Positions 1,575-14,164 of a DNA stretch of 50,156 bases are shown piece after piece; position 1 is the stretch's first letter, and each line of letters starts with the position of its first letter. Source of the DNA: Clostridia bacterium (GTDB taxonomy: Bacteria > Bacillota > Clostridia > Oscillospirales > Acutalibacteraceae); assembly GCA_017621885.1 (NCBI GenBank), contig JAGASD010000002.1:1-50156 (forward strand), read 5' to 3'. The position numbers and the translations under genes are program-made. Below the pieces are notes generated by a model. That model did no database searches and was not told the origin of the DNA. It saw only the letters and a program-made list of their open reading frames with translations.

Positions 1575-1577
1575 TTT

Positions 1578-1616
1578 ATCTTCCCGAGTCTTTGTTGATT
1601 CGGGAAGATTTTCTTT
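1578..1616 (+). terminator. intrinsic terminator after the MATE gene
   Basis: A 10-bp stem (ATCTTCCCGA, 1578-1587, with TCGGGAAGAT, 1600-1609) is followed by TTTTCTTT, directly after the MATE stop codon. Confidence 0.85.
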
Positions 1617-1688
1617 ACTTTTAAAAAAATATATAATATAATTTTGGTAATAGATAATTTTCGGAAGGGGAGAGTGTGATATAACCAG

Positions 1689-2765
1689 ATGATTTATAAT
1701 ATTGACAAAACAAAAAAAGAATCGGCATATATGCAGTTGTATAAGCAGCTGCGAGAGGATATTGTCAGCGGGGTTTATAAATACGGCTCAAGACTTCCCT
1801 CCAAAAGATTGGTTGCGGCTGAAACGGGGGTCAGCGTAATTACAACCGAGCACGCCTATGAATTGCTTTGTGATGAGGGTTATGCTGAGTCAAGGCAAAG
1901 AAGCGGATATTTTGTAATATACAGTGCGGATGCATGTTTGCCTGTTTCCGATAAAAGTGAAGCTGTTAAAAACCACAGCTTCCATAATGTAAAAACAGAG
2001 TTCCCTTTTTCAGTGTACAGTAAAACGGTCAGAAAGGTCCTGAGTGAATACGGGGAAGAATTACTTGTGAAATCTCCCAATAACGGTTGCAGAGAATTGC
2101 GTTCTGCAATTGCTTCATATCTTGCAAGAAGCCGCGGAATAAAGGTTGAGCCTAAGCAGATTGTCATAGGCTCGGGGGCTGAGTATCTATACAGTATTCT
2201 TGTGCAGACGGTAGGCAGAGATAAGGGAGTTGCCATTGAAGACCCTTCTTATGAGAAAATTAAAAAGGTGTATATTGCCAACGGTATTGAGTGCGAAATG
2301 CTGAAAATGGGGTCTGACGGAATTAAAACCAATGAGCTTGAAAAAGCAAAATCCCGCGTTTTGCACGTGACACCCTTTAACAGCTTCCCCAGCGGTGTTA
2401 CTGCAACCGCATCAAAACGCAGTGAATATGTTCGTTGGGCAAGAAATCGCAACGGCTTTATTATAGAAGATGATTTTGATTCCGAGTTTACGGTTTCAAT
2501 GAAAACTGCGGATACACTCTTTTCCCTTGCACCGGAATGTACGGTTTATATGAATACTTTTTCAAAAACCATTGCTCCTTCTGTCAGAATAGGTTATATG
2601 GTGTTACCCTTGAGGCTGCTTGAAGAGTATGAAAAAAAGGTTGGCTTCTATTCTTGCACGGTGCCTATTCTTGAACAGTATGTTTTAACAGAACTTATTG
2701 AAAACGGGGATTTTGAGCGGCATATAAACAGAGTGCGAAGGAAAAGAAGAAACAACAAAAGATGA
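1689..2765 (+). CDS. MocR/PdxR-type GntR regulator with aminotransferase-like domain, C-terminally short
   Basis: The N-terminal 70 residues are a GntR winged helix (YMQLYKQLREDIVSGVYKYGSRLPSKR, then VITTEHAYELLCDEGY). A class I aminotransferase fold follows, with the PLP-pocket aspartate region (FIIEDDFDSEF) and the Schiff-base lysine in NTFSKTIAPSVRIGY. MocR regulators use PLP or an amino compound as effector and often control an adjacent transporter or enzyme. The family is usually about 450-480 residues; this one stops at 358, right after the helix HINRVRRKRR, so the C-terminal small domain and its substrate-carboxylate arginine are missing. The next gene starts 31 bp later. It may be a truncated allele, a frameshift or a functional short form. 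The Shine-Dalgarno (AAGGGGAG) is distant from ATG 1689 (about 17 nt). Confidence 0.8.
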   Translation: MIYNIDKTKKESAYMQLYKQLREDIVSGVYKYGSRLPSKRLVAAETGVSVITTEHAYELLCDEGYAESRQRSGYFVIYSADACLPVSDKSEAVKNHSFHNVKTEFPFSVYSKTVRKVLSEYGEELLVKSPNNGCRELRSAIASYLARSRGIKVEPKQIVIGSGAEYLYSILVQTVGRDKGVAIEDPSYEKIKKVYIANGIECEMLKMGSDGIKTNELEKAKSRVLHVTPFNSFPSGVTATASKRSEYVRWARNRNGFIIEDDFDSEFTVSMKTADTLFSLAPECTVYMNTFSKTIAPSVRIGYMVLPLRLLEEYEKKVGFYSCTVPILEQYVLTELIENGDFERHINRVRRKRRNNKR

Positions 2766-2781
2766 AACCTGCTGAGCATGA

Positions 2782-4287
<1,506 letters not shown>

Positions 4288-5196: not shown

Positions 5197-6273
5197 TTAT
5201 AAACCCTTGCAGCTGAATTCTGTCCAAGCGGAATCCTTTGAAAGTGCGCCGCCGTTTGTGAATGTGCTTTTTGCAGAGCTTTCATTTTTAAGCCAGTAGC
5301 CGCACCATTTAAAAATATAGCTTGTATATGTGCCGGGGCTTGTACAACAGCTTGTGTGAATGCCGTCTATGAGTGATGCGTACACGGCAGGACCCTTGCA
5401 TACGTCATAAGCGGGTTTAACCCATCTGTCTGCATCAACAATCATATCTTTTGTGCCTGCAAGGAAAAGGGCAGGGGTATTAAGCTTTTCTGCTTCCTCT
5501 GTGTAGTTGCTGCCTGCTAAAGAAATAACGCAGTCAAAACGGCTGTCTGCGGCGGCAGCATTAACCGCGCTTCTGCCACCCTGAGAATGACCTGCAGCAG
5601 CGATTTTATCGGTTATGATATTTCCGTAAAGCACACTTGATGAGTTTTTGTTTTCGGAAATTATGAAGTCGAGGGATGATATCTGTGCTGTGCCGTCACC
5701 CGCCATTGTTACGTTGTTTGCAACAACAATGTAACCGCCCATTGCTAATTCCTTGAGCAAACTTTCATAAATTGTATAACTGAAGCCCGTGCCGTTTGCA
5801 AAGACTATTACAGGGTACTTTACGTTGCCTTTTTCAGCATTCTGAGGGTAAAATACAGTGTGTGTAATGCCGTTGTAATCTGCAGAATATTTGTTTACGG
5901 CAGAAATAACACCGTTGTCCTGCTGCGGTGCAGAGGTGGGATTATTGTTCTGGCTTTGCTGTGCTTGGGTGGGCTTCCGGGTTGCAGTTGTGGTATTTGT
6001 GTTGCCGGAGGTGTCGGTGTTCTGAGTTGAAGGCGCAGTGTTTTGCGCCGTAGCAGAGACCGAAGCGGGAACTGTTGATACGGGTTGACTGAGTATAACA
6101 GTTTCAAGGGTGTTGCTTTGAACAGTAACATTCTGATTTTGTTGGACTGTGGTATCATTGAGAATGGCTGAAACCTCGTCCGTGTTACCCGTTGGCGATT
6201 TAGCACAAGAGGTTAGTGAAAATGTTAATGAGAAAAGAAGTACTGCCGCAATTAAAACTTTAATTCTTTTCAT
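5197..6273 (-). CDS. secreted lipoprotein with alpha/beta hydrolase domain
   Basis: The 358-residue product begins with a lipoprotein signal (MKRIKVLIAAVLLFSLTFSL, lipobox LTSC, Cys23), so it should be lipid-anchored outside the membrane. Residues 24 to about 125 are a Thr/Gln/Asn/Ser-rich linker. The rest is an alpha/beta hydrolase of the dienelactone-hydrolase/chlorophyllase/PET-hydrolase-like type, with a nucleophile elbow GHSQGG (Ser230), a likely acid in AGTKDMIVDADRW and a likely catalytic His in DGIHTSCC. Several Cys near the C-terminus may form a disulfide. The substrate is unknown; an ester of a plant polymer is a fair guess given the neighbouring GH51 and esterase genes. No terminator is evident between it and purC. 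Confidence 0.85.
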   Translation of the reverse strand: MKRIKVLIAAVLLFSLTFSLTSCAKSPTGNTDEVSAILNDTTVQQNQNVTVQSNTLETVILSQPVSTVPASVSATAQNTAPSTQNTDTSGNTNTTTATRKPTQAQQSQNNNPTSAPQQDNGVISAVNKYSADYNGITHTVFYPQNAEKGNVKYPVIVFANGTGFSYTIYESLLKELAMGGYIVVANNVTMAGDGTAQISSLDFIISENKNSSSVLYGNIITDKIAAAGHSQGGRSAVNAAAADSRFDCVISLAGSNYTEEAEKLNTPALFLAGTKDMIVDADRWVKPAYDVCKGPAVYASLIDGIHTSCCTSPGTYTSYIFKWCGYWLKNESSAKSTFTNGGALSKDSAWTEFSCKGL

Positions 6274-6427
6274 AATTTATATCCCCTTATTAGATTATTT
6301 ACTTACAAATATATCATAATGCGCTTTTTTTAGCAATAGAGTGATGTACTTAAAGGCGTTTTGTACAATTGCGTTGGCTGTGAGTTGGTGAATGTGCCGA
6401 AACAGACTCGGGTGGCGTTATAAAATA

Positions 6428-6456
6428 TTGAATATTGCCGTTCGATGTATTATAAT
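6428..6456 (+). promoter_or_regulatory. sigma-A type promoter of the esterase gene
   Basis: TTGAAT (6428-6433), 17 nt, TATAAT (6451-6456), ending about 35 nt before the ATG. Confidence 0.65.
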
Positions 6457-6491
6457 TTTTTGGAAATATTTGGTGCTTGCGAGGTATAAAA

Positions 6492-7328
6492 ATGGTACAC
6501 AAAAGAATTGAATTAAAGGATTATTTCAGCTTTTTGGGAAATAACGGGGCAAATCCCGTTGTTGATGTTTATCTTCCGTACAATATGGTTGAAATGAACA
6601 GACAAAATCAGAAAAGACCGTGTATGGTCGTTTGTCCCGGCGGCGGTTACGGCTTTTGTTCCGAGCGGGAGTCTGAGCCCATTGCATTGCATTTTTTGCC
6701 CGAAGGCTTTAATGTTTTTGTGATTACGTATTCAGTTGCACCCCACCGCTTTCCCACACAGCTTTGTGAGGTTGCTGCGCTTATGGAGCTTATTTATAAA
6801 AACGCCGATGAATGGAATTGCGATACCGAAAAGATTGCAATTATGGGCTTTTCTGCAGGAGGACATCTTGCGGCGCATTACTCAACAATGTTTGATTGTA
6901 AGGAGGTTCGTGCGGTTTTTCCTGAAAGTAAATCTGTTAATGCATCCGTTCTTTGCTACCCCGTAATAAGCGCACAAGCTGTTACGGCGCATATGGGCAG
7001 CTTTGAAAATCTTTTGGGTCATAAGCCCGAAACACAGGAAGAAACGGATTATTTCTCCTGCGACAAGCACGTTAAACCCACAACACCGCCTGCATTTTTA
7101 TGGCATACTGCAGGGGATAATTGCGTTCCCCTTAAAAACAGCCTTCTTTATGCGGAGGCTTTGTGGAAAAATAAAGTGCCTGTTGAGCTTCACGTGTATC
7201 CCTTCGGAGACCACGGCTTGTCCACCTGCGATAAAGCTACCATTGACGATATGACGGGGATTTTCGAATACAACAGTGCTTGGTTGAAAAACGTAAAGAA
7301 ATGGTTGAAATTGATATTTGAGTTATAA
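6492..7328 (+). CDS. alpha/beta hydrolase, acetyl(xylan)esterase-like (BD-FAE family)
   Basis: This 278-residue cytosolic esterase carries the oxyanion-hole motif CPGGGYGFCSERE, nucleophile elbow GFSAGGH (Ser121), probable acid Asp209 (AGDNCVP) and catalytic His241 (FGDHGLS). This is the layout of small hydrolases that remove acetyl or feruloyl groups from plant oligosaccharides. The start at ATG 6492 is preferred to an in-frame TTG at 6477 because GAGGT (6481-6485) sits at the right distance. No signal peptide, so it would act inside the cell, like the GH51 enzyme nearby. It is divergent from the lipoprotein hydrolase and ends in a strong terminator. Confidence 0.85.
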   Translation: MVHKRIELKDYFSFLGNNGANPVVDVYLPYNMVEMNRQNQKRPCMVVCPGGGYGFCSERESEPIALHFLPEGFNVFVITYSVAPHRFPTQLCEVAALMELIYKNADEWNCDTEKIAIMGFSAGGHLAAHYSTMFDCKEVRAVFPESKSVNASVLCYPVISAQAVTAHMGSFENLLGHKPETQEETDYFSCDKHVKPTTPPAFLWHTAGDNCVPLKNSLLYAEALWKNKVPVELHVYPFGDHGLSTCDKATIDDMTGIFEYNSAWLKNVKKWLKLIFEL

Positions 7329-7333
7329 AATAA

Positions 7334-7376
7334 AAAAAGTTGTTGCGATTATTGTATCACAACAACTTTTTCTTTT
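7334..7376. terminator. bidirectional terminator, esterase/sugar kinase
   Basis: A 16-bp stem with one mismatch (AAAAAGTTGTTG… with …CAACAACTTTTT) is followed by TCTTTTTT. It lies between convergent genes. Confidence 0.9.
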
Positions 7377-8285
7377 TTATTTAAATAATTCCTTATAGGT
7401 GGGCATTGAGTTTTGCGCACCCATACGGCTTACTGCAATTGACCCTGCCTTGTTACCCATATCGCAGGCTTTCAGAATATCGCCGTTTTTTAAATATTCA
7501 AGAGCCATTGCGGCTGTAAAGCAATCACCTGCGGCAGTTGTGTCAACAACGTTGCTTTCGTAAGCGGGGAGGAGTGTAAGGCTTTCGCCATCCCACACAG
7601 AGCAACCTTTTTCCCCCAATTTAATTATAATAAACCTTGCTTTGCTTCGATCCATAAGGGTTTTTGAAGCCTTCAGAATATTATCTTCGCTGTCGGGATA
7701 AATACCGGTGAGCGCTTTTGTTTCGCTCTCGTTAGGGGTAACTATTGTTGCGCCCTGCATTTTTTCAAGGCTGAAGGCTTTTGCAGGACCGCAGTCTATT
7801 ACCGTTGTGATGCCTTTTTTTATAGCGGAATTAACGCTGCTTATAACGACCTCTTCATTTGTTTCAAACTGCACAAGAAGTAAATCAAAAGAGTTGTTTT
7901 CAATTGATTTTACGGCATCCTCTGATTTGATTTCTGCATTTGCGCCTTCGTAAACAACAATTCTGTTTTTTCCTTCACCGTCAAGAATGATTACCGCAAG
8001 GCCCGTGCTTGTGCCGTTCGTTGCAATACAGCTTGTGTCAATACCTTCATTCTGCAGGTTTTCTAAAAGTGTTTTTCCGTTCTCGTCTTCTGCAACCTTG
8101 CCAATCATTTTTACTTTTGCACCGAGGCGGGCAAGGGCGGTAGCCTGATTTGCACCTTTACCGCCGTTAGCGTAGCTGTATGTAGTACCCAAAAGATTTT
8201 CGCCAACGTCGGGCACCTGTTCCATATTTAAAATAAGGTCTTTATTTATACTGCCCACAACAGCGGCACGAATATTTTCGTACAT
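7377..8285 (-). CDS. rbsK: ribokinase (PfkB-family sugar kinase)
   Basis: This 302-residue kinase phosphorylates ribose or a related sugar with ATP. It has the N-terminal VVGSINKDLILNMEQVP strand, PfkB signature 1 (GGKGANQATALARLGA) and signature 2 with the catalytic Asp (DTTAAGDCFTAA). The start at 8285 (MYENIRAAVVG) is chosen because a GGAG overlaps the end of the upstream epimerase gene and the sugar-binding core begins right away; the open frame runs further upstream only because it overlaps that gene. It is co-transcribed with the epimerase. The pairing allows a role on ribose, allose/allulose or another pentose/hexose, and no transporter is nearby to decide. Confidence 0.88.
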   Translation of the reverse strand: MYENIRAAVVGSINKDLILNMEQVPDVGENLLGTTYSYANGGKGANQATALARLGAKVKMIGKVAEDENGKTLLENLQNEGIDTSCIATNGTSTGLAVIILDGEGKNRIVVYEGANAEIKSEDAVKSIENNSFDLLLVQFETNEEVVISSVNSAIKKGITTVIDCGPAKAFSLEKMQGATIVTPNESETKALTGIYPDSEDNILKASKTLMDRSKARFIIIKLGEKGCSVWDGESLTLLPAYESNVVDTTAAGDCFTAAMALEYLKNGDILKACDMGNKAGSIAVSRMGAQNSMPTYKELFK

Positions 8286-8292
8286 AAAATAA

Positions 8293-8958
8293 TCACTCCA
8301 GATATTCCTTGAAGGCCTTTGCAGCTTCTTCAAGGGATTTGTCTTTTAAGAACAATGAGCTTGTGCCGAGAACGTAAATATCTGCACCGCAACGGCTCAT
8401 TTTTCTGCCGTTTTCGAGGCTGATGTTGCCGTCAACCTCAATGAGTGTGTCACCATAGCCCCATTTTTTCAAAAGCTCGCGGGCTTCGGTAACCTTTCTT
8501 TCGGCACCCTTGAAAATCTTCTGGCCTGCAAAGCCGGGGCTTACGGTCATAACAAGGAGCATATCAAAGTAGTCCGTAAGATTTTTTACGCTTTCGACGG
8601 GAGTCTGGGGGTTAATTGCAAGACCTGCCTTGTACCCCTTGTTCTTTATAAGCTCAAGTGTTCTGTGAATGTGAACTTCGGACTCGTAATGAACGCAAAC
8701 GATGTCGTTCTCATCAAGCTTCATCTGTTCAACAAAACGACCGGGCTCATTTACCATCAGATGGATATCCAAAGGCATATCCGTTACCTTTTTGATTGCA
8801 TTGATTAAATCAAAGCCCAACGTAATATTGGGTACAAAAGCACCGTCCATAATGTCAATATGTAAATAATCAATGCCTGCTGTTTTTAAATTGTTTATTG
8901 CGTTTTCAAGATTTAAAAGGTCAGCACACATTATTGATGCGGATAAAAGTTTTTTCAT
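8293..8958 (-). CDS. rpe: ribulose-phosphate 3-epimerase family (Rpe or allulose-6-P epimerase)
   Basis: This 221-residue TIM-barrel epimerase interconverts ketose phosphates at C3. It shows HIDIMDGAFVPNITLG, DIHLMV and the phosphate loops EVDGNIS and GADIYVLGTSSLF. Some positions look more like D-allulose-6-phosphate epimerase AlsE than Rpe: the start SASIMCADLL, MTVSPGFAGQ (Rpe usually MSVNPGFGGQ) and GTSSLF. The start at 8958 is set by AAAGG eight bases upstream. It leads the operon with the sugar kinase, supporting either a ribose/pentose or an allulose pathway. Confidence 0.85.
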   Translation of the reverse strand: MKKLLSASIMCADLLNLENAINNLKTAGIDYLHIDIMDGAFVPNITLGFDLINAIKKVTDMPLDIHLMVNEPGRFVEQMKLDENDIVCVHYESEVHIHRTLELIKNKGYKAGLAINPQTPVESVKNLTDYFDMLLVMTVSPGFAGQKIFKGAERKVTEARELLKKWGYGDTLIEVDGNISLENGRKMSRCGADIYVLGTSSLFLKDKSLEEAAKAFKEYLE

Positions 8959-8990
8959 AATGTCAGCCTTTCGGGAGTTAATATAAAAGA

Positions 8991-9019
8991 ATTTTATCAT
9001 AATGAATAATACCTGTCAA
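8991..9019 (-). promoter_or_regulatory. promoter of the epimerase-kinase operon
   Basis: Minus strand: TTGACA (9014-9019), 17 nt, TAAAAT (8991-8996). This is a consensus-quality promoter about 35 nt from the start codon. Confidence 0.8.
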
Positions 9020-9105
9020 ATAATTATACCGTTGTTCCGATTATTATTATCATTGCCTACTGCAGGGTCCGAAACTCCTCGCTCCTAATTCCTCACTAAT
9101 TTGTA

Positions 9106-9135
9106 TTGACATTTATAAATGTTTTATGTTATAAT
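9106..9135 (+). promoter_or_regulatory. promoter of the T-box operon
   Basis: TTGACA (9106-9111), 18 nt, TATAAT (9130-9135). Transcription would start near 9142, just before the T-box stem I. Confidence 0.85.
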
Positions 9136-9157
9136 TTGTCGCATAATTTTGTTAAAT

Positions 9158-9408
9158 GCCGTGAAGGGAACAAGTAGCGTTAATTTGCGTAAAAAAGAGA
9201 GCTGCCGTTTGGTGAGAGGCGCGTGAGCAGTTAATGTGAATACATCCCGGAGCATCGCACCGAAATAACAGTAGGCTGCGGCGGGTGCGCCCGTTAAAGC
9301 GTGTGGGTTTTGATACCCTGTAAGGCGGTTTTTGTGAAAAAATCGCGAATAAAGGTGGTAACACGGGTTATGCTCGTCCTTTGGTTTTCAAGGACGGGTT
9401 TATTTTTT
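9158..9408 (+). promoter_or_regulatory. T-box leader, specifier UAC (tyrosine)
   Basis: All T-box landmarks are visible. Stem I begins with GGGA (9166-9169) pairing TCCC (9245-9248). Inside it are AGTA (9173-9176, S-turn strand), the helix CGTTAA/TTAATG (9178-9183/9231-9236) and, on the opposite strand, GAA then the specifier TAC (9241-9243) followed by A. The distal arm closes with CTGC/GCAG (9202-9205/9227-9230). A second domain carries CGAA…AGTAGG (9261-9275), and a stem III GGGT/ACCC follows (9305-9318). The T-box core AAAGGTGGTAACACGG (9351-9366) has UGGU (9356-9359), which complements ACCA of a tRNA with discriminator A, as tRNA-Tyr has. A terminator hairpin follows. Uncharged tRNA-Tyr should favour antitermination. 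Confidence 0.9.
9375..9408 (+). terminator. regulated terminator of the T-box leader
   Basis: CGTCCTT (9375-9381) pairs AAGGACG (9390-9396), followed by a T-rich tract. It is the alternative to the antiterminator formed by the T-box core. Confidence 0.85.
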
Positions 9409-9429
9409 TATAGAAAAGGAATGAAAGCT

Positions 9430-11070
9430 TTGCCTATTACAGATTTTCTTGTTAATAACGCAAAAAACTACAAGGACGAGGTTGCACTCGTTGAAATCAA
9501 CCCTGAAATTCAGGAGAAAAGTCGCCAGACCTGGAGAGAGTATTCTCTTATTGAGCCCAATCCCTTCAATGCAGGCAGAAATGAAATGACCTGGGGCGAT
9601 TTTGATAAAAAAGCCAACCGCTTTGCAAACCTTCTTCTTTCAAGAGGAATAAAAAAAGGGGACAGAGTTGCAATTCTTCTTATGAACGGTATTGAATGGC
9701 TTCCCATATATTTCGGTATTCTTAAAGCAGGTGCTCTTGCTGTGCCCCTTAACTACCGTTATACTGCAGACGAAATCAAATATTGTCTTAAACTTTCTGA
9801 TAGTGACGTGCTCGTTTTCGGTCCCGAATTTACGGGTCGTGTTGAGCAGATAAGTCACAGAATCCCCGACGTAAAATATACATTCTACGTTGGTGAGGAT
9901 TGTCCCACGTTTGCAGAAAGCTACGACAGACTTGTTACATATTGTTCATCAAAAGCACCGGATGTGAAAATTACCGATGAAGATGAAGCGGCTGTTTATT
10001 TCTCATCAGGTACAACGGGCTTCCCTAAAGCAATTCTTCACGCTCACAAGAGCCTTGTTCACGCAGCATTAACCGAGCAGAATCACCATTCTCAGGGCAG
10101 AGATGACGTTTTTCTCTGCATTCCGCCTCTTTATCACACGGGTGCTAAAATGCATTGGTTCGGCTCGCTCGTCGCAGGCAGCAAGGCAGTTTTGCTTAAA
10201 GGCACAAAGCCGCAGCTTATAATCGAAACAGCAAGTCAGGAGCGTTGCACAATCGTGTGGCTTCTTGTTCCGTGGGCGCAGGATATTCTTGACGCTATTG
10301 ACAGCGGTGAGATTGATTTGAATGAGTACGAGCTTTCTCAATGGAGACTTATGCACATCGGTGCACAGCCCGTTCCGCCCAGTCTTATTAAAAGATGGCT
10401 CAAGATTTTCCCCCATCATCAGTACGATACAAACTACGGTCTCAGTGAATCTATCGGTCCCGGTTGTGTGCATCTCGGTGTTGAAAACGTTCACAAGGTC
10501 GGTGCTATCGGTAAGGCAGGCTACGGTTGGGAGGTTAAGATTGTTGACGAGCACAGAAATACGGTTCCGCGCGGTGAGGTCGGTGAACTTGCAGTCAAAG
10601 GTCCCGGTGTAATGCTTTGCTACTATAAGGATGAAAAAGCAACCAACGATGTTCTCGGTGACGGGTGGCTCTTTACGGGCGATATGGCTCAGGAGGATGA
10701 AGACGGATTTATATACCTTGTCGACCGCAAAAAGGATGTTATTATTTCAGGCGGTGAAAATCTTTATCCCGTTCAGATTGAAGATTTCCTTCGTAAGCAT
10801 GAGGATATTAAGGATGTTGCGGTTATCGGTCTTCCTGATGCGCGTCTCGGTGAAATCGCCGCCGCCATTATTGAGGTTAAAGAGGGGATAACCCTTACAG
10901 AAGAGGACGTTAACGATTTCTGCTATGATTTGCCCCGTTATAAGCGTCCCAGAAAAGTCATATTTGCAAACGTTCCCCGTAACCCTACGGGTAAAATCGA
11001 AAAGCCGAAGCTTCGCGAAATATACTGTGGCGAAAGCCTTGTTGCTTCGCAGAATGAAATCAAGAAATAA
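9430..11070 (+). CDS. AMP-forming acyl/aryl-CoA ligase
   Basis: This ANL-superfamily enzyme activates a carboxylic acid with ATP and joins it to CoA. Motifs: phosphate loop SSGTTGFPK (about residues 192-200), NYGLSES, YKDEKATNDVLGDGWLFTGDMA with its hinge, GGENLYPVQIEDFL, and the C-terminal catalytic Lys522 in PTGKIEK. I prefer TTG 9430 as start because AAAAGGA ends nine bases before it. The ATG at 9421 directly abuts that site and is too close, but would add only three residues. The gene is first in an operon with iorA and iorB behind a tyrosine T-box. This points to an arylacetate such as 4-hydroxyphenylacetate or phenylacetate as substrate, rather than a fatty acid. That substrate is inferred from context. 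Confidence 0.88.
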   Translation: MPITDFLVNNAKNYKDEVALVEINPEIQEKSRQTWREYSLIEPNPFNAGRNEMTWGDFDKKANRFANLLLSRGIKKGDRVAILLMNGIEWLPIYFGILKAGALAVPLNYRYTADEIKYCLKLSDSDVLVFGPEFTGRVEQISHRIPDVKYTFYVGEDCPTFAESYDRLVTYCSSKAPDVKITDEDEAAVYFSSGTTGFPKAILHAHKSLVHAALTEQNHHSQGRDDVFLCIPPLYHTGAKMHWFGSLVAGSKAVLLKGTKPQLIIETASQERCTIVWLLVPWAQDILDAIDSGEIDLNEYELSQWRLMHIGAQPVPPSLIKRWLKIFPHHQYDTNYGLSESIGPGCVHLGVENVHKVGAIGKAGYGWEVKIVDEHRNTVPRGEVGELAVKGPGVMLCYYKDEKATNDVLGDGWLFTGDMAQEDEDGFIYLVDRKKDVIISGGENLYPVQIEDFLRKHEDIKDVAVIGLPDARLGEIAAAIIEVKEGITLTEEDVNDFCYDLPRYKRPRKVIFANVPRNPTGKIEKPKLREIYCGESLVASQNEIKK

Positions 11071-11083
11071 GAGGTAATAGATA

Positions 11084-12817
11084 ATGAAAAAGCTTTTATT
11101 AGGTAACGAAGCCGTTGCACGCGGTCTCTATGAGGCAGGCTGCCGTGTGGCTTCAAGCTACCCCGGTACTCCCAGTACAGAGGTTACTGAGTGTATTGCA
11201 AAATACACTGAAATTACAAGTGAATGGGCACCCAATGAAAAGGTGGCTTGCGAGGTCGCTTTCGGTGCGGCAGTCGCAGGTGCGCGTTCATTCTGCGCAA
11301 TGAAGCACGTTGGTCTTAACGTTGCCGCCGACCCTCTTTTTACATCATCATACACAGGTGTTAATGCAGGTATGGTTATTGTTGTTGCCGATGACCCCGG
11401 TATGCATTCTTCACAGAATGAGCAGGATAGCCGTCACTATGCTAAGGCTTCAAAAATTATGATGCTTGAGCCTTCCGACTCGGATGAGTGTCTTAAATAT
11501 TCAAAGCTTGCATTTGAACTTTCAGAGCGCTTTGATACACCTATTCTTCTTCGTCTTACAACACGCGTTTCTCACTCAAGAAGCCTTGCAGAGGTTAGCG
11601 AAAGAGTGGATAACGGACTTAAAGCTTATGAAAAGAATCCTCAGAAATACGTAATGGTTCCTGCAAACGCAAAGGTTAAACACGTTGAGGTTGAAAAACG
11701 TATTCTTGACCAGGTTGCATATTGCGAAGCAGAAGCAGTTGAAGCAGGTCTTAATACAGTTGAATACAACAGCAAAAAAATCGGTGTTATTACATCGGGT
11801 ATCTGCTACGAATATGCAAAAGAGGCATTGGGAGAAAACGCATCTTACCTTAAACTCGGTTGCGTGTACCCGCTTCCCGAAAAGCTTATTAAAGACTTTT
11901 ACAATGAATGCGAGACCGTTTACGTTCTTGAAGAGCTTGATGATTACATTGAAACTCATTGCCGTAAAATAGGTGTTGAGGTTAAGGGTAAATCCGAATT
12001 TACTCTTCTCGGTGAGTATTCACAGGGCCTTATCAGAAAAGTTATTCTCGGTGAAGAAACATCAGCTCTTAAAGCAGATGTGCAGATTCCCCCCAGACCT
12101 CCCGTTCTTTGTGCAGGTTGTCCCCACAGAGGTCTTTTCTACACACTTAAAAGACTTAACGTTACAGTAAGCGGTGATATCGGCTGCTATACTCTCGGTG
12201 TTGCAAAGCCCTTGGGTATGATGGATACGGTTCTTTGCATGGGCGGCAGTGTTTCGGGTCTTCACGGCAGAAATCTTGCGAATCCGGAAATGGCAAGCAA
12301 GAGTGTTGCGGTTATCGGTGATTCAACCTTTATCCATTCAGGCGTTACAGGTCTTATTGATATTGCCTACAACAACAGTAATTCTGTTACAATTATTCTT
12401 GATAACAGCATTACGGGTATGACGGGTCATCAGCAAAATCCCACAACAGGCTACAATATCAAGGGCGAGCCTGCAGCGGCAGTAAGTCTTGAAAAGCTTT
12501 GCGAGGCTGTTGGTATCAGCAATGTTTTTGTTGTTGACCCCTACGACCTTGACGATTGCTATACTAACATCAGCAAGGCACTTTCGCTTAACACTCCTGC
12601 TGTTGTTATTTCAAGAAGACCTTGCGCTCTTCTTAAAACTGTTAAACACAATCCGCCCCTCAAGGTTAACAAGGATAAATGTAAGTCTTGTAAAATGTGT
12701 ATGAAAATAGGTTGTCCGGCTATCAGTATGAAGGATGGCAAGGCAGAAATCGACTTTACACAGTGCCTCGGTTGCAATGTTTGTTCACAGCTTTGCAAAT
12801 TCGGCGCAATTGAATAA
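11084..12817 (+). CDS. iorA: indolepyruvate:ferredoxin oxidoreductase, alpha subunit
   Basis: IorA is the thiamine-diphosphate and iron-sulfur subunit that interconverts arylpyruvates and arylacetyl-CoA plus CO2 with ferredoxin. The 577-residue protein begins with the domain KKLLLGNEAVARGLYEAGC…SYPGTPSTE. It has the TDP-binding region (CAGCPHRGLFYTL, GDIGCYTLG, GDSTFIHSG, DNSITGMTGHQQNP) and ends in a two-cluster ferredoxin domain with Cys533, 536, 539, 544 and Cys561, 564, 567, 571. All cluster ligands are present. It starts 13 bp after the ligase gene and is followed by iorB, a complete two-subunit enzyme. The reaction is reversible, and the T-box argues for the carboxylating direction here. 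Confidence 0.95.
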   Translation: MKKLLLGNEAVARGLYEAGCRVASSYPGTPSTEVTECIAKYTEITSEWAPNEKVACEVAFGAAVAGARSFCAMKHVGLNVAADPLFTSSYTGVNAGMVIVVADDPGMHSSQNEQDSRHYAKASKIMMLEPSDSDECLKYSKLAFELSERFDTPILLRLTTRVSHSRSLAEVSERVDNGLKAYEKNPQKYVMVPANAKVKHVEVEKRILDQVAYCEAEAVEAGLNTVEYNSKKIGVITSGICYEYAKEALGENASYLKLGCVYPLPEKLIKDFYNECETVYVLEELDDYIETHCRKIGVEVKGKSEFTLLGEYSQGLIRKVILGEETSALKADVQIPPRPPVLCAGCPHRGLFYTLKRLNVTVSGDIGCYTLGVAKPLGMMDTVLCMGGSVSGLHGRNLANPEMASKSVAVIGDSTFIHSGVTGLIDIAYNNSNSVTIILDNSITGMTGHQQNPTTGYNIKGEPAAAVSLEKLCEAVGISNVFVVDPYDLDDCYTNISKALSLNTPAVVISRRPCALLKTVKHNPPLKVNKDKCKSCKMCMKIGCPAISMKDGKAEIDFTQCLGCNVCSQLCKFGAIE

Positions 12818-12835
12818 GAAAGGGGCGCGTATATT

Positions 12836-13405
12836 ATGAATAAATCAATTATGATTGTTGGTGTCGGCGGTCAGGGTACTCTTCTTGCAAGCCGTATTTT
12901 AGGCAGTGCTCTTCTTTCAAAGGGCTACGATGTAAAGGTTTCTGAGGTTCACGGTATGAGTCAGCGCGGAGGTTCCGTTGTAACCTACGTTAAATATGGC
13001 GAAAAGGTGTATTCACCCGTTGTCGGTGAGGGCGAAGCGGATTTGATTCTTGCCTTTGAACAGCTTGAAGCCGCAAGATGGCTCTCTTGTCTTAAACCCG
13101 AGGGAAAGGTTATCGTAAACACACAAAAAATTGATCCTATGTCAGTTGTTATCGGTGATTGTGAATATCCTGAGGGCGTTCTTGATGCTGTTAAAGCAAC
13201 AGGTGCAGCAGTTGTGGAGCTTGATGCACTTCCTCTTGCAGTTGAAGCAGGTTCACCCAAAGCCACGAACGTTGTTCTCATTGGAGCAATGGCAAAAAAT
13301 ACGGATATTGACAAGGAAATCTGGATAGATGCAGTAAAAGCCTGTGTTCCCGAAAAATTCCTTGAAATGAACCTTAAGGCTTTTGAATTAGGTTACAATC
13401 AATAA
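12836..13405 (+). CDS. iorB: indolepyruvate:ferredoxin oxidoreductase, beta subunit
   Basis: This 189-residue subunit is the gamma-type domain of 2-oxoacid:ferredoxin oxidoreductases. Typical segments are IMIVGVGGQGTLLASRILG, SEVHGMSQRGGSVVTYVKYG and the GSPKATNVVLIGAMA strand near the end. It pairs with IorA to form the active enzyme. It starts 18 bp after iorA with its own strong AAAGGGG and is last in the operon, before a terminator. Normal length. Confidence 0.95.
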   Translation: MNKSIMIVGVGGQGTLLASRILGSALLSKGYDVKVSEVHGMSQRGGSVVTYVKYGEKVYSPVVGEGEADLILAFEQLEAARWLSCLKPEGKVIVNTQKIDPMSVVIGDCEYPEGVLDAVKATGAAVVELDALPLAVEAGSPKATNVVLIGAMAKNTDIDKEIWIDAVKACVPEKFLEMNLKAFELGYNQ

Positions 13406-13411
13406 AATGGA

Positions 13412-13450
13412 AAGAAGATGCGCTAAATAAGGTGCATCTTCTTGTTTTTT
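13412..13450 (+). terminator. terminator of the ligase-iorAB operon
   Basis: AAGAAGATGC (13412-13421) pairs GCATCTTCTT (13434-13443), followed by GTTTTTT. Confidence 0.9.
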
Positions 13451-13474
13451 ACATATACTGTATTGGTGAAGCTT

Positions 13475-14164
13475 ATGGTAAAAATGTATTTTAAGCCGAG
13501 ATTAAAACGCCCACCGCCAATACGGGCGAAAAGATATGTTCCTAAAAGAAAAGCAAATACCATTATTTTCAGGGCGGTTTCGGTGTTCCTCGTAATCAGT
13601 ATTCTGACGGTTATCTGTGATATTAAAATGCGACCCGTTATTCAGACGGTAGGGGGAACGGCTCTCAAAAACTCACTATCCAACGTTCTTGACAGAACAG
13701 TTAACGAAATTGTTGATGAGTTGGGTGTGCGATACGGTGATATGGTTAATGTTGAAAGAAATCCCGACGGTACGATTGCCGCAATAACTCTTAACAGTTC
13801 CTACATAAACGGATATAAGGCGGATTTATCTGACGGTTGCTCCGACAGACTTGCAAAATTTGATAAAACAGAAATTCCTATACCGTTAAGCGCTATCGTG
13901 GGTTTTGCTTTTCTGGATAATGAAATGTTCGACATAAATGTTACTGCAACAATATACGGCTTTGCAGTAACGGATGTCGTTTCAAAATTTGAAAGTGCAG
14001 GTATAAACCAGACACGGCATACAATTTATCTTGATGTTCAGGCATCAGCTCATGCGTATATGGGCTTTTGCCTTCTTAACGAGAGCGTTGACGAAACAAT
14101 AATTCTAGTTGAAACAATAATTGTGGGGGAGGTACCCCAATCGTATTATGTGAGAAGTAATTAA
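13475..14164 (+). CDS. yunB: sporulation protein YunB
   Basis: The protein (about 229 residues) has a basic N-terminus (RLKRPPPIRAKRYVPKRK), one membrane segment (IIFRAVSVFLVISILTVIC) and an external domain. That domain has the YunB hallmarks: IPIPLSAIVGFAF, the AGINQTRHTIYLDVQ segment and the C-terminal ETIIVGEVPQSYY. YunB is a membrane protein made during sporulation and needed for fully resistant spores in Bacillus; its molecular role is unknown. Start choice is weak: ATG 13475 has GGTGA a few bases upstream, and ATG 13484 is also possible. It overlaps nothing and ends in a bidirectional terminator. Its presence argues the host forms spores. Confidence 0.87.
   Translation: MVKMYFKPRLKRPPPIRAKRYVPKRKANTIIFRAVSVFLVISILTVICDIKMRPVIQTVGGTALKNSLSNVLDRTVNEIVDELGVRYGDMVNVERNPDGTIAAITLNSSYINGYKADLSDGCSDRLAKFDKTEIPIPLSAIVGFAFLDNEMFDINVTATIYGFAVTDVVSKFESAGINQTRHTIYLDVQASAHAYMGFCLLNESVDETIILVETIIVGEVPQSYYVRSN

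Follow-up and report, generated by a model that had tools for sequence, protein, structure and literature searches.

T-box control has been described for shikimate-derived tyrosine biosynthesis and for phenylalanine-4-hydroxylase in the Bacillus cereus group (in passages of PMC2494555). In methanogens, indolepyruvate:ferredoxin oxidoreductase (Ior) and a phenylacetyl-coenzyme A (CoA) ligase serve the assimilation of indoleacetate and phenylacetate, as described in part of PMC6737245, and an aryl-acid pathway to aromatic amino acids is attributed to Methanococcus maripaludis (Porat et al. 2004, as cited in a passage of PMC4162585). Rumen cultures make phenylalanine from phenylacetate and leucine from isovalerate (work of Allison in the 1960s, as cited in a passage of PMC7356843). 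Here we analyze a stretch of 50,156 nucleotides (the window) from contig JAGASD010000002.1 of a gut Clostridia bacterium (assembly GCA_017621885.1), in which a T-box leader RNA with a tyrosine specifier precedes the genes of an adenosine monophosphate (AMP)-forming acyl-CoA ligase and of the two Ior subunits, iorA and iorB. We conclude that the tyrosine T-box on this operon is real, recurrent and well explained, and that, by joining a known regulator class to a known chemistry, it indicates in which direction an ambiguous enzyme runs.

The T-box leaders of tyrosine genes (tyrS, the tyrosine operon of the B. cereus group and phenylalanine-4-hydroxylase) belong to the same RNA class, RF00230, and follow the same specifier logic as the leader described here. 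Their targets, however, are the shikimate-derived pathway, a hydroxylase or a synthetase, whereas here they are a carboxylic-acid ligase and a ferredoxin-dependent 2-oxoacid oxidoreductase. The methanogen pathway, as far as the cited passages describe it, resembles our operon in pairing Ior with an arylacetyl-CoA ligase for biosynthetic reductive carboxylation beside another pathway, but it is archaeal, and the window ligase is of the FadD/4CL-like AMP-forming type. We know of no T-box for the archaeal (Methanococcus) pathway. Rumen carboxylation of phenylacetate and isovalerate shares with our proposal both the chemistry and the kind of host in which relatives of the operon occur, but that chemistry is known from whole cells, whereas our proposal assigns to it a set of genes that carry their own amino-acid-specific regulation. 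The phenylacetate-CoA ligase PaaK (TIGR02155) also makes arylacetyl-CoA, and a PaaK-like gene lies behind iorB in several relatives; the window ligase belongs to another subfamily. Among the open-access papers listed in the searches, no title or abstract start linked a T-box to Ior or to an arylacetate ligase, in a scope without the T-box surveys PMC2650889 and PMC2271356 and without supplements. The words ferredoxin and CoA do not occur in the main text of PMC2494555, nor do ferredoxin, CoA ligase or acyl-CoA in PMC3766115. Regulator class and chemistry are each known, and their combination is the part that looks new. An earlier sequence-only reading of the window had described arylacetate assimilation into aromatic amino acids as known in anaerobes, which PMC7356843 and PMC6737245 match in part of their text. 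It had also called T-box control of this gene trio unusual, a judgement that stands for the literature searched; among genomes, a T-box before this ligase recurs in the order and is not unique to the window.

The leader occupies positions 9152 to 9384 of the forward strand, on which all features of the operon lie. In cmscan it scored 121.7 bits with the full RF00230 model (positions 1-219), well over the gathering score of 93, at an E value of 1.5e-26. In this covariance model (CM) alignment the specifier loop reads, in order, GAA, UAC (9241 to 9243), A and UCCC (9245 to 9248). The UCCC strand pairs with GGGA at 9166 to 9169, with the single A between it and UAC, and CGTTAA/TTAATG, the second loop-flanking helix of stem I, also pairs. 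The T-box bulge UGGU (9356 to 9359) can pair with the ACCA end of a tRNA; the genome's own tRNA-Tyr has anticodon GTA and discriminator A and fits the bulge, and tRNA-Phe, whose discriminator is also A, fits it equally. Folding places a terminator hairpin at 9372 to 9399 (-13.6 kcal/mol), which shares bases with an antiterminator starting at 9352 (-5.6 kcal/mol), making the two mutually exclusive. The sequence-only reading had proposed this loop (GAA-UAC-A), both helices and the match of UGGU to the end of tRNA-Tyr; the alignment bears out each of these, places an aromatic codon in the specifier position and adds that the bulge alone does not separate tRNA-Tyr from tRNA-Phe.

The reading frame of the specifier was assessed separately. 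TBDB takes as its first choice the bases 2-4 nucleotides 5′ of the end of the specifier bulge, and 99% of its tyrosine specifiers are UAC (passages of PMC7778990); this frame, applied to the window leader, yields UAC. A genome-wide search gave 12 T-box matches in all, and the register was calibrated on eight other T-boxes of the genome with genes matching NCBIfam models, three of which (alaS, ileS and a leuA-like gene) fell below the NCBIfam cut-off, alaS and ileS being fragments. An automatic caller ranked the expected codon first in five of the eight (pheS UUC, thrS ACC, trpB UGG, alaS GCU and ilvA AUC), ranked CUC second for the leuA-like gene, missed ileS (AUC by hand) and made no call for aspS. 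Run blind on the leaders of relatives, the caller did not always choose the UAC frame; that frame fits if a fifth pair is counted into the helix, but at L051, L056, L062, L150, L152 and L239 the helix starts two bases past UAC, and strict spacing would give ACA there. The alternative frames AAU and ACA were dropped for the window leader on the CM alignment, the one-base spacing and the conservation of UAC amid varied neighbours. The sequence gives good support for regulation of the operon by tyrosine.

Most likely, the T-box heads a closed operon of three genes. The first (9421 to 11070) encodes a predicted AMP-forming acyl(aryl)-CoA ligase of 549 aa, a class I adenylate-forming enzyme in which both AMP-binding domains, N (PF00501, 254 bits) and C (PF13193, 47.3 bits), were found. 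After a gap of 13 bases follows iorA (11084 to 12817), the alpha subunit of 577 aa (TIGR03336, 712.7 bits against an equivalog cut-off of 650.9), with TPP_enzyme_C, POR_N and Fer4 domains above cut-off; a whole-genome search found no other full-length IorA in this genome. The beta subunit of 189 aa is encoded by iorB, 18 bases further on (12836 to 13405), and matched NF005325 (286.5 bits, cut-off 230) and PF01558 (144.7 bits), while the second beta-subunit model, TIGR03334 IOR_beta, was just missed (200.5 against 205.8). A terminator hairpin of 13 pairs followed by a T run lies at 13412 to 13443, and because the next gene is the sporulation gene yunB (13475-14164, PF09560), the operon most likely consists of the ligase, iorA and iorB. 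Upstream of the leader stands a sigma-70-type promoter (TTGACA-18-TATAAT, 9106 to 9135) with 12 of 12 consensus matches, the best of eight promoter-like sites in 9000-13600; eight is no excess over the shuffle mean of 7.7, and the weight of this site lies in its perfect match and its place.

If the tyrosine specifier reflects the function of the operon, homologous loci should carry specifiers of the same kind. A search of 394 sampled genomes of the order with the ligase (E <= 1e-150) found it in 146 of them, spread over 68 of 169 genera, and all but one of these genomes had a single match. We assembled 209 loci, 80 named from GTDB genomes and 129 from further genomes, leaving out 16 of the 145 other ligase-bearing genomes, mostly for partial genes; the 80 include Ruminococcus flavefaciens, R. 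albus and many metagenome-assembled genomes (MAGs) from ruminant guts. At the loci of the two named Ruminococcus species no T-box was seen. T-boxes were sought by pattern (10 of the 80, then 36 of the 209), by a wider upstream search (three more) and by a profile built from the first set (five more with a readable specifier), and the specifiers were read by hand from the sequences. In this way 44 of the 209 loci yielded a readable T-box. With the window there are 45 such leaders, 41 reading UAC (tyrosine) and four UUC (phenylalanine), and no other codon was read among the 45. Outside the 44 stand L188, whose truncated leader does not reach the specifier, and L058, where a T-box 2.8 kb upstream reads AAC and was taken to belong to another gene. 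Two loci, L136 and L141, duplicate L025 and L054; they were counted in the 209 and left out of the tree, and L136 is without the T-box seen in L025 only because of its shorter flank.

A scripted helix check of the 45 leaders placed the start of the 3′ strand one base past the codon in 33, two bases past it in six and directly after it in four, and found no helix in two (L177 and L203). Three of the four with no gap (L162, L193 and L199) also fit with one-base spacing, and the fourth (L217) fit at the wrong place; in L177 the 5′ side is cut off. The script was supplied with the codon, and these counts therefore test the helix without being blind calls of the specifier. RF00230 alignments of the four UUC leaders (L203, L217, L162 and L186) score 116-140 bits and show UUC in the columns occupied by UAC in the window leader. 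All four adjoin UAC congeners: L162 pairs with L172, L186 with L168 and L171, and L203 and L217 lie near L239. A FastTree phylogeny of 206 ligases requires a minimum of four changes between UAC and UUC, or at least three if the two leaders from the same genus are grouped together. The ligases of L162 (UUC) and L172 (UAC) are 94% identical, and no residue was found that separates UUC from UAC ligases: at eight positions the residue common to the UUC ligases also occurs in 15-29% of the UAC ligases, and nine positions differ in paired UUC/UAC comparisons without a common residue. We infer from the congeners, the 94% identity and the lack of a separating residue that the sensed tRNA moved between tyrosine and phenylalanine while the enzyme stayed much the same. 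Such a shift on a near-constant ligase is what would be expected if the product were an aromatic amino acid made from an arylacetate.

The genes found beside the ligase in relatives also favour an anabolic use. At 18 of the 44 T-box loci, and at 45 of the 164 loci without a T-box seen, iorA lies directly downstream of the ligase. Three of the four UUC loci, and the UAC loci L297 and L298, have the order T-box, ligase, iorA, iorB, PaaK, ACT, the fourth UUC contig ending in iorA; the UAC loci L019, L048 and L056 also carry PaaK and ACT. The PaaK-like protein of L048 scores below the TIGR02155 cut-off (552.4 against 646.3), as do all PaaK-like genes, which occur in 31 of 34 genomes. At L048 the next gene encodes a class I/II aminotransferase, and with it a single T-box operon would cover the whole path from arylacetate to amino acid; at L023, which has no T-box, a weak aminotransferase match (23% identity) lies behind iorB. 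Transporters also occur: at L016, L019 and L025 the T-box (UAC in all three) stands before a sodium:solute symporter that precedes the ligase, at L060 such a symporter follows the ligase, and at L066 a major facilitator superfamily (MFS) transporter does.

A second set of genes in the same genome appears to follow the same logic for branched-chain amino acids. On another contig, outside the window (L093 1577-15718, G000:C55), T-boxes reading CUC, AUC and GUA stand at a leuA-like gene and two AMP-ligases. One strand carries the 2-isopropylmalate-synthase-like gene (CUC leader) with an AMP-ligase fusion. The other carries an AUC leader before a ligase with helix-turn-helix (HTH) and cupin parts, and then a GUA leader before another ligase of this type, followed by the genes of a P-loop protein, VorBAC and IlvE; VorB and IlvE scored over their cut-offs, and VorA and VorC were assigned by domain. 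The first of the two ligases has relatives in 100 of 147 sampled genomes of the order, and when 29 other loci were scanned for leaders, AUC was read in eight and GUA in six, the others having none or none readable by pattern. In five genomes with wide flanks that were picked for their AUC leaders, and are thus a chosen set (L299-L303), the gene order of this cluster is largely kept: the two ligases are side by side in all five, Vor genes come next in four (the fifth contig ends), IlvE is present in four, and the second leader reads GUA in three, could be located but not read in a fourth and escaped detection in the last. This gene set is what would be expected for making isoleucine and valine from 2-methylbutyrate and isobutyrate. 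One genome would then apply the same logic twice, and this makes it more likely that the aromatic set, too, is anabolic. The proteins of this cluster have peculiarities of their own. The two acyl-CoA ligases (6201-8471 and 8854-11139 of L093) carry the N-terminal HTH and cupin domains as an odd built-in regulator-like part, with an HTH_19 match over cut-off only in the second (8854-11139). The fusion beside the leuA-like gene with the CUC T-box (1577-4033, reverse strand) is an 818-aa protein joining a xylose-isomerase-like TIM barrel (AP_endonuc_2) to an AMP-ligase.

Taken together, we consider it very probable that the window operon is an arylacetate-assimilation unit that is switched on when tRNA-Tyr is uncharged and supplements the prephenate route. 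By the mechanism of its class, uncharged tRNA-Tyr would pair with UAC in stem I and, through its ACCA end, with UGGU, stabilizing the antiterminator and letting polymerase read through. The ligase would then use ATP to make an arylacetyl-CoA, most likely 4-hydroxyphenylacetyl-CoA, IorAB would act as a carboxylase that uses reduced ferredoxin and CO2 to turn it into arylpyruvate, and an aminotransferase whose gene is unlinked to the operon would convert the arylpyruvate to tyrosine. The substrate is most likely an arylacetate, with 4-hydroxyphenylacetate the first candidate, and the enzymes most likely run in the carboxylating direction. That direction is argued for by the starvation control, by the PaaK-type ligase, ACT protein, symporter and single aminotransferase in relatives, and by the parallel isoleucine/valine cluster. 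Since a similar set stands under a phenylalanine T-box in some relatives, the module as a whole probably serves both phenylalanine and tyrosine, from phenylacetate and 4-hydroxyphenylacetate. The anabolic sequence from arylacetate over arylacetyl-CoA and arylpyruvate to tyrosine had been put forward in the sequence-only reading, which also looked to homologous operons for aromatic specifiers; all 45 readable leaders, the partner genes and the isoleucine/valine parallel support it.

Several observations weigh against this assignment. No T-box was seen at 164 of the 209 loci (one more being cut off), 11 of the 209 having fewer than 300 bases upstream, and the 45 leaders are not 45 independent events, as they were found by one profile and are probably homologous. 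Directly downstream of the ligase, iorA was not seen at 26 of the 44 T-box loci; one of these had fewer than 900 bases downstream, and with many flanks of about 1 kb an iorA behind another gene would have been missed. When five of the genomes concerned were searched in full, four proved to hold a full-length IorA at another site, and none was found in the fifth (L062). Among the 25 listed of 108 matched NCBIfam families, substrate-specific ones included, the ligase passed no cut-off, and its closest model among the matches listed is that of a generic acyl-CoA ligase (NF004837, 414.3 against 476). The window operon, like L013, L025 and L051, is without PaaK and ACT behind iorB, and the genome holds no close homologue of the symporter (best match 29% identity). 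It also carries tyrA and pheA, PF02153 and PF00800 both being matched. Finally, the reported production of tyrosine from phenylalanine by rumen microorganisms, cited in a passage of PMC7356843, is a point against 4-hydroxyphenylacetate as the substrate, as it leaves room for a phenylacetate route to tyrosine.

The presence of tyrA and pheA makes the arylacetate operon an additional, second route, one that supplements and does not replace the prephenate route. We had also considered that the route might be essential for want of tyrA, an idea rejected on the same two matches. Across 28 genomes examined, tyrA was found in 23 and pheA in 25, with completeness data for the window's own genome only. 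Three of the five without tyrA (the genomes of L051, L066 and L077) carry the T-box, a coincidence to which we give no weight because these are MAGs of unknown completeness. The same genome holds, on another contig (L334 3150-4900, G000:C56), a two-gene unit of a PaaK-like ligase and an ACT-pair-like protein, on whose contig the genome-wide search found no T-box. This pair is a better candidate for a phenylacetate branch than the window ligase.

Among the alternatives, the one that survives best holds that the ligase takes, in place of 4-hydroxyphenylacetate, either phenylacetate or a wider range of aryl or acyl acids, the tyrosine specifier serving as a proxy for aromatic shortage or tyrosine being made from phenylalanine as in the rumen organisms above. 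The alternation of tyrosine and phenylalanine specifiers on ligases up to 94% identical, with no separating residue, is as this alternative would have it, and IOR enzymes accept several aryl pyruvates. Tyrosine made from phenylacetate would, on the other hand, need a ring hydroxylation, which is usually oxygen-dependent, and the separate PaaK-ACT pair, with no T-box found on its contig, is the better phenylacetate candidate. We regard this alternative as possible but unlikely. Far less probable still is a ligase for some unrelated fatty or hydroxycinnamic acid that shares the operon with iorAB solely because each is of use when tyrosine is short. The generic family assignment allows this, as do the fatty-acyl, feruloyl and 4-coumarate ligases among the structural neighbours found by sequence, but iorA lies directly downstream at the loci counted above, several of them with PaaK and ACT next, and UAC-controlled ligases at loci without iorA tie the ligase itself to tyrosine supply.

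AMP-forming ligases are ill-suited to ATP production in reverse, which counts against the least probable alternative, a catabolic one in which IorAB oxidizes aromatic 2-oxo acids during amino-acid fermentation and the ligase handles the CoA ester or recaptures lost arylacetate. Ior is characterized in archaeal peptide fermentation, and the same enzyme serves fermentation and biosynthesis, the presence of its genes alone being no proof of function (as part of PMC6737245 states), but all 45 leaders sense tRNA-Tyr or tRNA-Phe and would switch on degradation exactly when that amino acid is short, the ligase-Vor-IlvE cluster under isoleucine and valine control parallels an anabolic use, and we reject the catabolic reading on this control logic, in agreement with the sequence-only reading, to which catabolism had made little sense under a T-box.

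The assimilation reading may extend beyond this operon, and related gut and rumen bacteria appear, from their sequences, to place similar sets of genes under control by tyrosine or phenylalanine. We lean towards the view that gut and rumen Clostridia run a tRNA-gated salvage of fermentation acids, in which each acid has its own ligase and 2-oxoacid:ferredoxin oxidoreductase under a T-box for the amino acid regenerated. Under this hypothesis, T-boxes for tyrosine or phenylalanine would govern arylacetates and those for isoleucine and valine would govern branched-chain fatty acids, and changes between tyrosine and phenylalanine specifiers would re-tune a route. If true, the cell decides separately for each amino acid whether to build it from sugar or to carboxylate acids that it has scavenged. 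Where Ior in uncultured genomes is ambiguous, a T-box naming the scarce amino acid gives the missing direction from sequence alone. The loci also offer candidate genes, and their regulation, for the way in which rumen bacteria use phenylacetate and branched-chain acids, a chemistry described since the 1960s, and make each of its proposed steps testable. This suggests that 4-hydroxyphenylacetate and phenylacetate are not merely gut waste and can be taken back by neighbours.

Two further observations concern the wider ligase family. The motif CTTTAAAG occurs in 17 of 170 regions upstream of ligase genes that were without a T-box by the calls of an interim stage, against 0.8 expected from mononucleotide shuffles. 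Loci of this kind, among them L022, L055, L069, L072 and L208, have a palindrome (GCTTTAAAGC or ACTTTAACGCGTTAAAGT, for instance) within the promoter spacer or close to it. The palindrome is possibly the operator of an unknown regulator used instead of a T-box. At L073, L074, L085 and L091 a ligase of 72-74% identity lies on contigs labelled Lentisphaeria, Lentisphaerae or Victivallales, which reflects either transfer between phyla or wrong binning.

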